Shown here: piece by piece, positions 2,523-7,650 of the stretch
Position numbering within the stretch: the stretch's first letter is position 1
How the letters are laid out: each line of letters opens with the position of its first letter
Assembly (NCBI RefSeq): GCF_013170845.1
Contig: NZ_CP033367.1
Location: 3,907,001 to 3,971,000, forward strand
Source: Mesorhizobium loti R88b
GTDB lineage: Bacteria; Pseudomonadota; Alphaproteobacteria; Rhizobiales; Rhizobiaceae
DNA length: 64,000 nt
Reading direction: 5' to 3'
Notes under the pieces: model-generated
What the model was told of the DNA's origin: nothing
The model's input: the letters and a program-made list of their open reading frames with translations, nothing else
Database searches by the model: none
Translations under genes and position numbers: made by a program

Positions 2523-3152
2523 CTAGGCGACCTTCGCGGCGTGCGCCATTCCGGTCGTCAGGTCGCCATAGCCGGTCGGGCGCCGCTCATAGGCGAGGCC
2601 GAGCAAGACCGCTGCCTTTTCCGCGACCTTGTCGAGTTCGGGATCGTTGGTCTGGGCGAGATAGATCAGCTTCTCGTAATTGCCGAAATAGTCCTTGATC
2701 AGCTCCGGATGCTTGTCGAGACCGAGCGGTTTCATGAAGAAGGCATCGAACTGACGGCACAGGAAATCGGTCATGTAGAAGGACATCATGTCGTCGTCGG
2801 CGATTTTCGCATAGGCTTCCATGCCTTGATAGAAGGCGAAGCAATGCGGGCCGGCCATGCGCTCGACGTGATGCTTCTCCAGGACGCGGTCAAGCAGGCC
2901 ACCGGTGCCGCAATCGGCATAGCCGACGAAGATGTGCTCGTAACCCTCGGCCCTGGCCTTCTCGATCGCCTTGTCCATGGCGGGCGCGATGCGGTCGGGA
3001 TAGAAATGGAATTCCGCGGGAAGACAGGTCAGTTCCAGATGGTCGAGCTTGAGCTGCTCCTTCACGGCCAGAACTTCGCGCGCGAGCATGCCGCAGGCAA
3101 TGACCAGAACCCTGCCTGCTTGATTCTGCTTGGATCTGGGCATCTTGACCAT
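2523..3152 (-). CDS. DUF1638 domain-containing protein
   Basis: This 209-residue protein matches the DUF1638 family, whose members are repeatedly found beside MttB-type methyltransferases and corrinoid proteins in methanogens and proteobacteria. Visible family features are the N-terminal VLVIACGMLAREV segment, HIFVGYADCGTGG in the middle (a cysteine in a Gly-rich turn) and CRQFDAFFMKPLGL. The biochemical role is not known; a role in corrinoid or methyl transfer is an inference from gene neighbourhood. Here it lies about 2 kb from the corrinoid protein gene on the same strand, but an AT-rich island now separates them. It is convergent with the broken epimerase, with a 10-base gap. Confidence 0.82.
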   Translation of the reverse strand: MVKMPRSKQNQAGRVLVIACGMLAREVLAVKEQLKLDHLELTCLPAEFHFYPDRIAPAMDKAIEKARAEGYEHIFVGYADCGTGGLLDRVLEKHHVERMAGPHCFAFYQGMEAYAKIADDDMMSFYMTDFLCRQFDAFFMKPLGLDKHPELIKDYFGNYEKLIYLAQTNDPELDKVAEKAAVLLGLAYERRPTGYGDLTTGMAHAAKVA

Positions 3153-3581
3153 GGGACTAGCCGAGCCGGCCTTCGTAACTATCGGGCGAATTTATCGGGA
3201 GAGGGATAATCCGTCCACGAAAACATTTAGATATGCAGTCCTAGTGCTGATCGATAGTGCTGATGGTCTCGGCGCGCACCAATACGGCGCTACCAAGAGC
3301 GCCGGCAAGAAAAGTCGCCAACGCGACGCAGTGACGCGATCATTTCCGCAAGCAGGCCTATTCATGGTGCTCGCCGCTAAAGGCCGCCGGAGAGCGGCCG
3401 CTTTTGACCGTCTCGACCGTTGTCGACGGATAGGCGCGCTACTTTCTCAATTAGATTGTAATTGTCATGCGGAAAAGTCGCTCTCCCTTGGCAATAGCAG
3501 CGAGGACGAATCATAGATCACCAATATAAGTGAAAACGTTGACACAAATAGATAAATGCGTATGCTTGGTGAGGGGGTACA
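3153..3581. other. Intergenic stretch at the edge of the AT-rich island
   Basis: No convincing gene lies in these 429 bases; the open frame on the plus strand here has no family-like features. Base composition drops across the stretch as it enters the island. It holds a perfect 10-base direct repeat, TAGTGCTGAT, at 3242-3251 and 3255-3264, separated by CGA. Its right end must hold the promoter of the GTPase gene. Confidence 0.6.
3539..3566 (+). promoter_or_regulatory. Possible promoter of the GTPase gene
   Basis: A perfect TTGACA at 3539-3544 is followed after 16 bases by TATGCT at 3561-3566. The predicted transcription start would fall only a few bases before the strong ribosome binding site GAGGGGG at 3571-3577, which leaves a very short leader and lowers confidence. 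Confidence 0.3.
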
Positions 3582-4625
3582 ATGAAACGACAGCGGGTCG
3601 CCTCGACGGCTATTTTTCTTTGCTTGATGACAAGCCTTGGCTTTGCGAAGGATTTTGTTCCATCAATATCGTATTGTGAGGCGAAATCTTTCGCCGATCA
3701 ATGTGAGGGTTTGGTGCCGGATTCCGCTGAGTGTAAGACAAAAATTGAAATTGCCACAAAGGGGTGCGACGAATATCTCGGTAGCACAACTATTATTGTC
3801 TGGAAAAAATTCAACGAGAATATAGCCGAAATTGTCGCTACCTTGTTCCTGGCATTGTCATTGCTTTTGGCTTCTCTGAATCAATTCATGCGCAACCAAA
3901 TAGCGAGATTTAAGGCTCGGTTAGCCGATCCATATATTCAACGCGCACCAAAGTATGAAACCTTCGGTCTTAGCGCTATGGTGGTTGGAATTGGTGGCTG
4001 TGGCAAAACGTCCATTGTGAAGGCGCTCTCTGCTTCAGAGCACGCGGATCCTGATGTCGCTACTGCGGAGGCTCTAACTTATTCACTTGTTAACGAGGTA
4101 ACTGTCAGGAAGCAAAATCAGACCTTCCGAAGGCTCGTGCGGATGTACATCAGCGACCACGTCGGCCAGAATTTCCGATCAATATTTTCAACCGACTTCT
4201 TCAAGGATTCAGAAATTGCGCTTTTAAAAAAATGCGTCATTGTCGTTGTTGATCTGTTTCCGCCAGTTGGCCACCTCGACGGCGTTCCGCGGCGAAAAGA
4301 ATTTAATCTTGAAAGAATAGCGGAGAATCTGGAAATATATAGCGACGAAATGGTGCAATTGATCACGCAGAACACAAAGTCTGGAGATTCGGTCGTCTTG
4401 TTTATTAATAAAATAGATCAGTTGCAGGAAATCGACGACACGGCGATAAAGCGAGCAAAGGGACACTATCGCCCCCTCGTAAACAGGCTTGCAGGAATCA
4501 AAGGGCTGAAACTAAGTGTCTTGGTAGGTTCGGCCGGGACTGGGATGGGTATTTGCGGGACGGAGGCTGGGGGGAGCGAGGGCGGATTGCTGGGAATCTT
4601 GGTCGAGGCGTCTGGACCGATATGA
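3582..4625 (+). CDS. Membrane-anchored Ras-like GTPase with Cys-rich periplasmic domain
   Basis: A 347-residue protein with three parts. Residues 1-22 look like a signal peptide. Residues 23-80 form a small extracytoplasmic domain with four cysteines (32, 41, 51, 62). A membrane segment follows at about 82-104, and the rest is a cytoplasmic small-GTPase domain. The G motifs are in order: P-loop GIGGCGKT (136-143), the Ras/Arf-type DHVGQ (192-196), NKID (276-279) and GSA (316-318). The ATG at 3582 follows a strong GAGGGGG ribosome binding site. Base composition is far more AT-rich than the surroundings (hand count 21 G+C in 60 at 4201-4260), suggesting transfer. I recognise the GTPase class but not this architecture; the Gly-rich C-terminus (about 318-347) is unusual. 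Confidence 0.8.
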   Translation: MKRQRVASTAIFLCLMTSLGFAKDFVPSISYCEAKSFADQCEGLVPDSAECKTKIEIATKGCDEYLGSTTIIVWKKFNENIAEIVATLFLALSLLLASLNQFMRNQIARFKARLADPYIQRAPKYETFGLSAMVVGIGGCGKTSIVKALSASEHADPDVATAEALTYSLVNEVTVRKQNQTFRRLVRMYISDHVGQNFRSIFSTDFFKDSEIALLKKCVIVVVDLFPPVGHLDGVPRRKEFNLERIAENLEIYSDEMVQLITQNTKSGDSVVLFINKIDQLQEIDDTAIKRAKGHYRPLVNRLAGIKGLKLSVLVGSAGTGMGICGTEAGGSEGGLLGILVEASGPI

Positions 4626-4634
4626 GATAACCAA

Positions 4635-5018
4635 ATGGTAAATTGGCGAGATAAGAGGCCGGAAGATTTTTCCGTTGAACATCAGGGCTTGCGCGACAGC
4701 GCATCCGAATTCAGGAAAGCCGAATCCAGACCACCGGTTTCTTACCGTCTTTTAATTGTGGCTACGCCGATTTTTCTCATGTACTCGCTTTTAGTCTCCT
4801 ATCTTTACTATCGAGATGTTGTTCTTGACGTTAAGCCAGGGAATGATCGGTTGCTGGCTCTGTCCAAGCAGATCGATGGCTTGAATAGTAGAATTGCACC
4901 TCTTCAGCAGCTTTCGGACTTCGTAAAAAAGGAATGCGCCAACGTCGACGCAGTTAAAGTATCAAAAGTCAATTTTTGTAAGGATCTAACGGACAACTAT
5001 CTGAAGAACATCAATTAG
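4635..5018 (+). CDS. Small single-pass membrane protein, partner of the GTPase
   Basis: This 127-residue protein starts 9 bases after the GTPase stop, so the two are almost certainly co-transcribed. It has a charged cytoplasmic N-terminus (about 37 residues), one membrane segment at about 38-59, and a C-terminal part with a heptad-like helix (about 70-100) and two cysteines (101 and 115). The predicted orientation puts the cysteine-bearing tail on the same side of the membrane as the cysteine-rich domain of the GTPase, so direct contact is plausible. It shares the AT-rich composition of its neighbour. I do not recognise a family. The role as a partner is inferred from position and topology only. 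Confidence 0.65.
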   Translation: MVNWRDKRPEDFSVEHQGLRDSASEFRKAESRPPVSYRLLIVATPIFLMYSLLVSYLYYRDVVLDVKPGNDRLLALSKQIDGLNSRIAPLQQLSDFVKKECANVDAVKVSKVNFCKDLTDNYLKNIN

Positions 5019-5087
5019 ACATCGCAAAAACTACTCTAATCCTAAGCCTCAGATCTCTCTCCAGCCGCCTTGCAAAGGTGCTCTTGT

Positions 5088-5786
5088 TTAGGCCGAAGCG
5101 CGCACGTTGTGCTTACGCTTCATGAAGTCCTTGGCGGTCTCGACAGCCACCGCGGCATCGCGGCAATAGGCGTCGGCGCCGACGGCCTTGCCGAATTCCT
5201 CGTTCAGCGGCGCGCCGCCCACCAGCACGACATAGTCGTCTCGGATGCCCTTTTCCTTCATCGTGTCGATGACGACCTTCATGTAGGGCATGGTGGTGGT
5301 CAGCAGTGCCGACATGCCGATGATGTCGGGCTGGTGCTGTTCGATCGCATCGAGATATTTCTCGACCGCGTTGTTGATGCCAAGATCGATGACGTCGAAG
5401 CCGGCGCCTTCCATCATCATGCCGACGAGGTTCTTGCCGATGTCGTGGATGTCGCCCTTGACGGTGCCGATCACCATCTTGCCCTGCTTGGGCGCGCCGG
5501 TGGCGGCGAGCAGCGGACGCAGGATGAACATGCCGGCCTTCATGGCGTTGGCCGACAACAGCACTTCGGGAACAAACAGGATGCCGTCCCGGAAATCCTC
5601 GCCGACGATGCGCATGCCTTCGACCAGCGCTTCGGTCAGCACCTTGTAGGGCACCCAGCCGCGTTCCAGCAGGATGTTGGTGCCTTCCTCGATCTCTTCC
5701 TTCAGCCCGTCATAGAGGTCGTCGTGCATCTGCTGCACCAACTCATCGTCGGAAAGTTCGGAAAGGATGATCTCGTCGTCGGACAT
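5088..5786 (-). CDS. Corrinoid (B12-binding) methyl-carrier protein, MttC/MtbC type
   Basis: A 232-residue corrinoid protein that carries the methyl group between a substrate:corrinoid methyltransferase and an acceptor:corrinoid methyltransferase. Residues 1-90 are the helical cap region and residues 100-232 the B12-binding Rossmann domain. The DxHxxG motif, whose His is the lower axial cobalt ligand, is DIHDIG at 112-117, followed by the SALLTTT and VGGAPLN segments typical of the fold. I chose the ATG at 5786, 13 codons inside the longest frame, because GGAG lies about 10 bases before it. It is divergent from an MttB-type gene across a 289-base gap, so the two are likely partners under shared control. 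Confidence 0.93.
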   Translation of the reverse strand: MSDDEIILSELSDDELVQQMHDDLYDGLKEEIEEGTNILLERGWVPYKVLTEALVEGMRIVGEDFRDGILFVPEVLLSANAMKAGMFILRPLLAATGAPKQGKMVIGTVKGDIHDIGKNLVGMMMEGAGFDVIDLGINNAVEKYLDAIEQHQPDIIGMSALLTTTMPYMKVVIDTMKEKGIRDDYVVLVGGAPLNEEFGKAVGADAYCRDAAVAVETAKDFMKRKHNVRASA

Positions 5787-6075
5787 ATGTATCGAGCTCC
5801 TGCCGGCATCGCGACTGCGTCGCAAGGCACAAAATATTCGCGTTCATACCTAACCCGCTGGGGGCGTGTATCCATAGCTGATTTGCGACTTCCCGCAAAA
5901 GGAAAGCGACTGGAAAATCTATTGGTTTTCTTGTCGATTTTGCGACAGGCGTTGGCGCGGACGGGCCGTTTCGAATAGGGTGCATGGCTACGATCCGGGC
6001 AAAGCCGCGCCATGCGGCTACAACGGTTACGGACCAGCCATCGTCAGGCCAGGCCATATTTAGGGAAGAGCGATC
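5787..6075. promoter_or_regulatory. Divergent control region of the corrinoid protein and mttB-like genes
   Basis: These 289 bases must hold both promoters. An 8-base direct repeat, TTTGCGAC, occurs at 5882-5889 and 5939-5946, 57 bases apart, and could be a regulator site. No clear palindrome of more than 6 bases per arm was found. Confidence 0.4.
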
Positions 6076-7650
6076 ATGAGCGAACACGCGGCAGTCGACC
6101 AGGAAGCGTCAAACGCGCGGCGTGGACGCGCTGCCAGCGGCGGCGCGGCGGCAAGACGCGCGGCACGCTCGGGCGGTGGCCCAGGCACGCAGCTCACCTA
6201 TATCAAGCGCAAGATCAACGTTTATGAGGTGCTGAACGAGGAAGGACTGGCGCTGATCGAGAAGAACACCGACACGGTGCTCGAAGAGATCGGCATCATC
6301 TTCCGTGACGATGCCGAAGCGCTGCAGCTTTGGAAAGAGGCCGGCGCCGACGTCAAGGGCGAGCGCGTGCACTTCCCGAAGGGACTGTGCCGCTCGCTGC
6401 TCAAGACCGCTCCGTCCATCTACACCCAGCATGCCCGCAATTCCGAGCGCTCGGTACAGATCGGCGGCAACGCCACCGTCTTCGCGCCGGTCTATGGCCC
6501 GCCCTTCGTGCGCGACCTCGACGGTGTCAGGCGCTACGCGACGATCGAGGATTTCCAGAATTTCGTGAAGCTCGCCTATATGGCGCCGTCGATCCACCAT
6601 TCGGGTGGCACGGTGTGCGAGCCGGTCGACGTGCCGGTCAACAAGCGCCATCTCGATATGATCTATTCGCACATAAAGTATTCGGACAAGCCGTTCATGG
6701 GCTCGGTGACCGCGCCGGAACGCGCCGAGGACACGGTGGCCATGGCCAAGATCGTGTTCGGTGACGACTTCGTCGAGAACAACACGGTGTTGACCAGCCT
6801 GATCAACGCCAACTCGCCGATGGTGTTCGACGAGACAATGCTCGGCGCGCTGAAGGTTTATTCGCGTCACAACCAGGCCTGCATCGTCACGCCGTTCATC
6901 CTCGCCGGCGCGATGAGCCCGGTGACGGTCGCCGGCACGCTGACGCAGGTCCTGGCCGAAGTGCTGGCCGGCGCGTCGTTCACGCAGCTGATCCGGCCGG
7001 GCGCGCCAGTGCTGTTCGGCACCTTTGCCTCGTCGATCTCGATGCAGTCGGGCGCGCCAACCTTCGGCACGCCGGAGCCGTCGCTGGTATCCTATGGCGC
7101 CGCACAGCTCGCACGCCGCCTCGGCCTGCCGTTCCGTACCGGCGGTTCGCTCTGCGCATCAAAGGTTCCGGACGCTCAGGCCGCCTACGAAAGCGCCAAC
7201 ACGCTGAACTCGACCATTTTGGCAGGCACCAACTTTGTCCTCCACTCGGCCGGCTGGCTCGAGGGTGGGCTGGCGTCCTGCTACGAAAAATTCATGATGG
7301 ACATCGACCAGCTCGGCATGACGCAGAAATTCTCCGAAGGCGTCGACCTGTCGGAGAACGGCCAGGCGATGGACGCCATCCGCCAGGTCGGACCGGGCAG
7401 CCACTATCTCGGCTGCGACCACACACAAGCGAATTTCCAGACCGCCTTCTACCGCTCCAACATCGCCGACAACAATTCCTACGAGCAATGGCTGGCCGAA
7501 GGCGAGAAGACCGCGCCGCAACGTGCCAACGATCTCGCCCGCCGCTGGCTGGAAAGCTATGAGGCGCCTTATCTCGATCCGAGCATCGACGAGGCGCTGA
7601 AGGACTTCATCGCCAAGAAGAAGGGGTCGATGCCCGACGCCTTCACTTGA
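6076..7650 (+). CDS. Trimethylamine methyltransferase (MttB) family protein, non-pyrrolysine
   Basis: A 524-residue member of the MttB superfamily, TIM-barrel enzymes that transfer a methyl group from a quaternary amine to a corrinoid protein. The frame has no internal amber codon, so it belongs to the pyrrolysine-free branch, whose characterised members act on glycine betaine, proline betaine or carnitine. Family-like segments include GTPEPSLVSYGAAQLARR and LHSAGWLEGGLASCYEKFMM. The N-terminus (about residues 1-40) is a basic, Ala/Gly/Arg-rich extension. An AGGGA ribosome binding site precedes the ATG. It lies divergent to the corrinoid protein gene and upstream of a 4Fe-4S protein. The substrate cannot be read from the sequence. 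Confidence 0.92.
   Translation: MSEHAAVDQEASNARRGRAASGGAAARRAARSGGGPGTQLTYIKRKINVYEVLNEEGLALIEKNTDTVLEEIGIIFRDDAEALQLWKEAGADVKGERVHFPKGLCRSLLKTAPSIYTQHARNSERSVQIGGNATVFAPVYGPPFVRDLDGVRRYATIEDFQNFVKLAYMAPSIHHSGGTVCEPVDVPVNKRHLDMIYSHIKYSDKPFMGSVTAPERAEDTVAMAKIVFGDDFVENNTVLTSLINANSPMVFDETMLGALKVYSRHNQACIVTPFILAGAMSPVTVAGTLTQVLAEVLAGASFTQLIRPGAPVLFGTFASSISMQSGAPTFGTPEPSLVSYGAAQLARRLGLPFRTGGSLCASKVPDAQAAYESANTLNSTILAGTNFVLHSAGWLEGGLASCYEKFMMDIDQLGMTQKFSEGVDLSENGQAMDAIRQVGPGSHYLGCDHTQANFQTAFYRSNIADNNSYEQWLAEGEKTAPQRANDLARRWLESYEAPYLDPSIDEALKDFIAKKKGSMPDAFT

Follow-up and report, generated by a model that had tools for sequence, protein, structure and literature searches.

The DNA analysed here (the window, 64,000 nucleotides) carries a gene pair encoding a membrane-tethered small GTPase and, immediately downstream, a single-pass membrane protein with a conserved NWRD motif at its start. 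The recurrence of an NWRD-starting small membrane protein beside related GTPases suggests an undescribed two-part membrane switch. The window's pair goes beyond chance, with homologues at 51%, 35% and lower, a modelled GTPase fold and a conserved partner N-terminus. Pairing, tail motif, G motifs and insertion of the pair are all legible in the sequence itself.

The GTPase (347 aa), delimited by its open reading frame, alignment and a predicted model, occupies 3582..4625 on the plus strand, as do all features of the two proteins described below. A GAGGGGG stretch lies upstream of the ATG at 3582, which makes this a likelier start than the later one used by P0001, a 332-aa database copy. A signal-peptide-like N-terminus (residues 1-23, 3582..3650) is followed by an outer segment (3651..3821) with cysteines at residues 32, 41, 51 and 62, a predicted membrane helix (residues 81-99, 3822..3878) and the G domain (residues 126-347, 3957..4622, from the predicted model). 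The four cysteines and the helix, both described in an earlier sequence-only reading, were recovered, the helix by a hydrophobicity scan. The signal peptide claimed in that reading stands in part: it is recognisable by eye and coincides with a model helix at residues 2-24, but the hydrophobicity scan at its threshold did not flag it in the window protein. The same scan flagged N-terminal segments in P0002, P0003 and the cyanobacterial core copies, and AxA-like cleavage sites can be seen by eye in GTPase N-termini. A second flagged segment, residues 212-230, overlaps a G-domain strand of the predicted model.

Alignment of the core GTPases (eight rows) places motifs G1 to G5 in the right order, as had been noticed before: the G1 P-loop GIGGCGKTS (residues 136-144, 3987..4013), Thr161 as the candidate G2 switch-I threonine (4062..4064), G3 DHVGQ (residues 192-196, 4155..4169), G4 NKID (residues 276-279, 4407..4418) and G5 GSA (residues 316-318, 4527..4535). 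Invariant in 8/8 core rows are G136, G141, K142, T143, Thr161, D192, G195, Q196, N276, K277 and D279. Curated Pfam cut-offs are missed by the window GTPase for Arf (20 bits, 22.3 needed), Roc (20.4 against 27) and Ras (12.9 against 21.6). The G motifs fold as a GTPase in the predicted model, whose structural matches are small GTPases. Fold and membrane segments are predicted features, and GTP hydrolysis is a putative activity.

The partner (127 aa, 4635..5018) begins 9 bases after the GTPase open reading frame ends, as first read, and is known from its open reading frame, with no Pfam, NCBIfam, PHROG or PADLOC match at E<=1. It opens with MVNWRDKRPED (4635..4667), a motif identified by comparison across core loci, and has a predicted membrane helix at residues 39-57 (4749..4805; hydrophobicity scan) and a tail stretch running from Cys101 to Cys115 (4935..4979), which bears out its description as a small membrane protein with two tail cysteines. 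The basic residues flanking the helix, 5 versus 4, weakly favour an N-in orientation.

Downstream DNA is readable for five of the eight core GTPases (P0002, P0003 and P0006 lack readable context). An NWRD single-pass partner follows the GTPase at four of these five loci, the window included, and so at three of the four other loci. This recurrence in distant genomes, with a common partner N-terminal motif, supports the partnership that had been proposed from the window alone. Partner starts are MVNWRDKRPED in the window, MSNWRDRTERD at L007, MSNWRDPTEGD in G1166 and MSNWRDQSERD in G1041, lying 9, 47, 13 and 11 bases after the GTPase, respectively. All four fit the pattern M-[SV]-N-W-R-D-x4-D and are accompanied by one predicted membrane helix. 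Partner lengths range from 52 to 268 aa, with little in common beyond the NWRD tail. The fifth readable core locus, in G153, has a GTPase that lacks a predicted membrane helix in the hydrophobicity scan; 314 bases downstream of it is the gene for a membrane protein of 123 aa, which has no NWRD.

The GTPase is sparsely distributed. Among 146 genomes of the genus, a protein search found it in the window's own genome only. Relatives in the protein database are P0002 (51%), P0003 (35%), P0005 (the G153 copy) and P0006, the last two being all that was gained by the A3 profile search, which scored the 7992 candidates sharing most words. Across 397 genomes of the own order, G153 is the one relative besides the window; a Roc/LRR protein of that order (L006) was dropped as a weak match (20.7 bits). 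The 398 genomes of the own phylum yielded no further convincing relative, eight other matches of about 18-22 bits being set aside by score and range. Three core copies are cyanobacterial: G886 (Synechococcales, locus L007), G1166 and G1041. The search that gave G1166 and G1041 matched 33 genomes, of which G886, G1166, G1041 and G1004 were retained; the others, at about 19-26 bits and mostly over the P-loop region, were dropped on score and range. A further search gave ten rows above ~59 bits, namely G886 and G1166 of the core and eight of a two-helix clade, and a search of 148 genomes, largely overlapping the earlier sample, gave no new locus of interest. The searches of the own order and own phylum scored 5 first-look candidates per genome and the one with 33 matching genomes 7, so relatives may be missed.

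In a tree of 22 rows support for the core group is moderate (84/87, not starred); the window, P0002 and P0003 cluster together (97/98), and the two-helix and myxobacterial groups are supported at 100/98 and 100/99. The tree includes 6/8 polyangial loci, L010 and L013 being left out as similar by eye. Because branches are long, the deeper order is unsure. GTPases of the cyanobacterial two-helix clade (315-364 aa at L056-L062) have two N-terminal predicted membrane helices, found ahead of the P-loop at 8/8 loci. Downstream of these cousins NWR[DE] occurs at 0/8 loci in any same-strand frame over 1230-1401 bases; L056 has one stray WRD far downstream. At one of the eight (L063:1276-2531, in G1220) the GTPase gene is overlapped by a gene for a 114-aa small membrane or coiled-coil protein without NWRD.

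The window's gene pair is rare and apparently horizontally acquired. It lies in an inserted islet (3223..5089): matches to the flanks stop at 3222 and resume at ~5090. Islet GC is 47.6%, versus 61.3% and 62.7% on its two sides, and third-position GC is 51% and 49% in the islet genes versus 80% and 84% in two neighbours. A promoter-like TTGACA-16-TATGCT precedes the pair (3539..3566, plus strand), a consensus match only, with one found versus 2.4 in shuffles. A terminator-like hairpin with a T-rich stretch closes the islet (5066..5080, plus strand), a consensus match only; the region holds 7 such sites versus 2.3 in shuffles, with 3/7 on the plus strand. The islet edges show no clear bounding repeats. 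A DNA search of 41 genomes, including the window's own, found both flanks on one contig in 38/40 relatives among the rows listed. The flank-to-flank gap is 82-395 bases in 35 of these 38, mostly about 180-330, and is 837, 850 and 2334 bases in the remaining three. The 2334 bases, in G102 (L093:488-2449), contain an integrase-like fragment below the Pfam cut-off, so the site may be a shared hotspot for insertion. An acyltransferase-like open reading frame is also visible there by eye. The islet is flanked by genes for DUF1638, a B12-binding protein and an MttB-type methyltransferase (window 2523-7650), and several relatives have extra copies resembling the B12-binding gene region in the DNA search. 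Among plasmids, the best matches of the MttB gene are from Sinorhizobium, at about 80%, which points to a rhizobial lineage.

Another reading, considered unlikely, is a mobile anti-phage defence module that is triggered by the GTPase and has the small membrane protein as its membrane-damaging effector. The rarity of the islet and the longer inserts at the same site in 3/38 relatives, the longest with its integrase-like fragment, are consistent with it, as are an Eco57I-type methylase and a BsuBI/PstI endonuclease adjoining the L007 pair and a PIN-domain gene near the G1166 pair. However, PADLOC-DB 2.0.0 gives no match for the window GTPase at E<=0.001 (best E 0.019) and none for the partner, and the matches of its relatives are to AriA (2/8), Avs4 (1) and mad8 (1), at E 2e-4 to 7e-4. 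The window's scanned neighbours are metabolic, regulatory, transport-related or of no known role, and the GTPase is without a match in phage, plasmid or viral-contig collections. Beyond the GTPase, no third gene, counting open reading frames of at least 60 aa, is common to the five neighbourhoods (blastp E<=1e-4), a test coarse enough to miss the short partners themselves.

The sequence-only reading had seen in the pair an outside-to-inside signalling device. In the corresponding explanation, an outside ligand or redox state would be sensed by a cysteine-rich outer domain, which would then switch the GTPase, and the partner would act as co-receptor. The four outer cysteines recur in P0002 and P0003, and two tail cysteines are present in 3/5 core partners, both of which agree with sensing. 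Yet the four cysteines are seen only in the window, P0002 and P0003; in the cyanobacterial core GTPases, three in number, no cysteine precedes the membrane helix, and only ~10 residues lie outside in one of them (length by eye). Of the core partners, 2/5 have no cysteines. The conserved parts of both proteins, in turn, would face the cytosol according to the predicted topology. Conserved cytosolic parts combined with variable outer parts weaken the receptor reading, which is quite unlikely, and favour a membrane-bound switch; the signalling direction first proposed is not well supported.

The NWRD start could also serve in membrane insertion or another form of targeting that has nothing to do with the GTPase, with the two genes merely travelling together. 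Its position at the extreme N-terminus, shortly ahead of a membrane helix, would suit such a role. The DNA pattern for M-x-N-W-R-D-x4-D was found in 3/194 cyanobacterial genomes (a sample that does not include G886), twice beside a core GTPase and once in an 86-aa open reading frame without a predicted membrane helix; the pattern read backward gave 2 matches in the same 194. In the own order it was found in 1/182 genomes, the match being the window's partner, with 0 for the backward-read control. Outside core GTPase loci there is thus one match in the 376 genomes of Cyanobacteria and own order. One would expect a general targeting signal to occur more often, and this rarity, together with the lack of a predicted helix in the one outside match, makes the explanation decidedly improbable.

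The reading preferred here, and held to be moderately probable, is that of a self-contained module, spread horizontally, whose G domain would bind the NWRD tail according to nucleotide state and thereby gate the partner's outer tail. The GTPase would be anchored in the cytoplasmic membrane, its G domain reaching into the cytosol, and the single-pass partner would present to that domain a cytosolic N-terminal tail, M-x-N-W-R-D-x4-D, its one clearly conserved part. Binding may take place in one nucleotide state, such that GTP loading or hydrolysis would engage or release the partner within the membrane, and the state of engagement would control the action of the partner's variable extracytoplasmic tail. 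The Trp-Arg of the NWRD tail might either reach in beside the nucleotide, the arginine then being an activating one, or act as a docking peptide. Docking is favoured, since a catalytic-type glutamine is already present in the GTPase itself.

A looser likeness is found in RagA-like membrane GTPases at eight polyangial loci (L008-L013, L053 and L054), of which that at L012 matches Gtr1_RagA at E 8.7e-8. The next gene encodes a membrane protein, as in the window, and Trp-Arg precedes its helix at 7/8 loci; L011, the eighth, has Trp without Arg at that position. Because the loci are interrelated and the motif is short, the Trp-Arg is suggestive only. These GTPases differ from the window's in their G3, which is DWGGE in the 6/6 rows checked, and in a coiled-coil-like linker (by eye) ahead of the G domain, and their partners differ in having a large N-terminal domain. 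This domain, conserved over ~300 aa in the partners of the pairs at L009:7389-10608, L012:7680-10565 and L054:6262-8889, matches no Pfam family at E<=0.1 (two scanned) and no PDB sequence, and its model folds poorly (mean pLDDT 48.3).

Taken more broadly, and only tentatively, the pair may represent a class of bacterial membrane GTPase switch that has had no name, with a short, Trp-Arg-containing cytosolic tail of a single-pass partner reading the state of a tethered G domain. Members of the NWRD type would occur in the window's rhizobial lineage and in Cyanobacteria, and members of a WR type perhaps in Myxococcota; their outside parts would be interchangeable, and the tail would be a portable GTPase-docking peptide. 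If so, a compact membrane switch would be spread across distant phyla with a partner recognisable only by its eleven-residue tail, and the NWRD motif would supply both a candidate GTPase-binding peptide and a cheap finder of more such systems.

Several known systems share parts of this layout. The beta subunit of the SRP receptor (SR-beta) has a short outer N-terminus, one N-terminal membrane helix and an Arf-like domain inside. That the window GTPase is its bacterial counterpart, with a role in protein targeting, is hardly credible: the order of parts is alike and 2/8 core members match the SRPRB profile at E<=0.01 (best E 5.3e-5), but the window GTPase has no SRPRB match at E<=1, the partner differs from SR-alpha (127 aa, no SR-alpha-type GTPase domain, no Pfam match), and the module, being rare, is dispensable.

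In MglA/MglB and the conservons (Cvn), as in the window, a bacterial Ras-like GTPase gene adjoins the gene of its cognate regulator. In the available part of one survey, 449/488 MglA-family proteins are under 240 aa and 404/488 are coupled to MglB (PMC4316618). The window GTPase differs from both systems in its outer segment, membrane helix and DxxGQ, and its partner is a small single-pass protein. The roadblock (MglB) family has no match in the 9 flanking open reading frames scanned (E<=1e-5), nor does the partner match any Pfam family at E<=1. Rup group 1 likewise comprises prokaryotic Ras-superfamily GTPases with membrane-linked neighbours, but lacks the G3 glutamine in the same part of the survey (PMC4316618), whereas the window's core family has DxxGQ and exceeds 240 aa, each in 8/8 core rows. 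Since proteins above 240 aa were dropped from further analysis there (PMC4316618), the window's architecture would fall largely outside that survey's view, as far as the available part describes it. A Rup group 1 member is reported there for Mesorhizobium loti (PMC4316618), and a further 172-aa open frame in the window's genome (L001), matching the Arf profile at E 2.4e-11, is perhaps its counterpart. DO-GTPase/GAP1 pairs a TRAFAC GTPase, with N-terminal membrane segments in about 13%, with a conserved partner, according to the available part of its description (PMC7159879). GAP1 has three globular domains in that account, unlike the small single-pass partner of the window. Pfam, which presumably includes DO-GTPase and GAP1 models, matches neither to either window protein at E<=1. 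In the literature searched, no paper describes this GTPase-partner pair, judged by title or abstract start, and the first impression of an unrecognised architecture thus holds within the profile libraries and literature covered. The pair is rated as a known kind of system, a small GTPase with its cognate partner, in a new form: a membrane-tethered GTPase with an NWRD-tailed partner.
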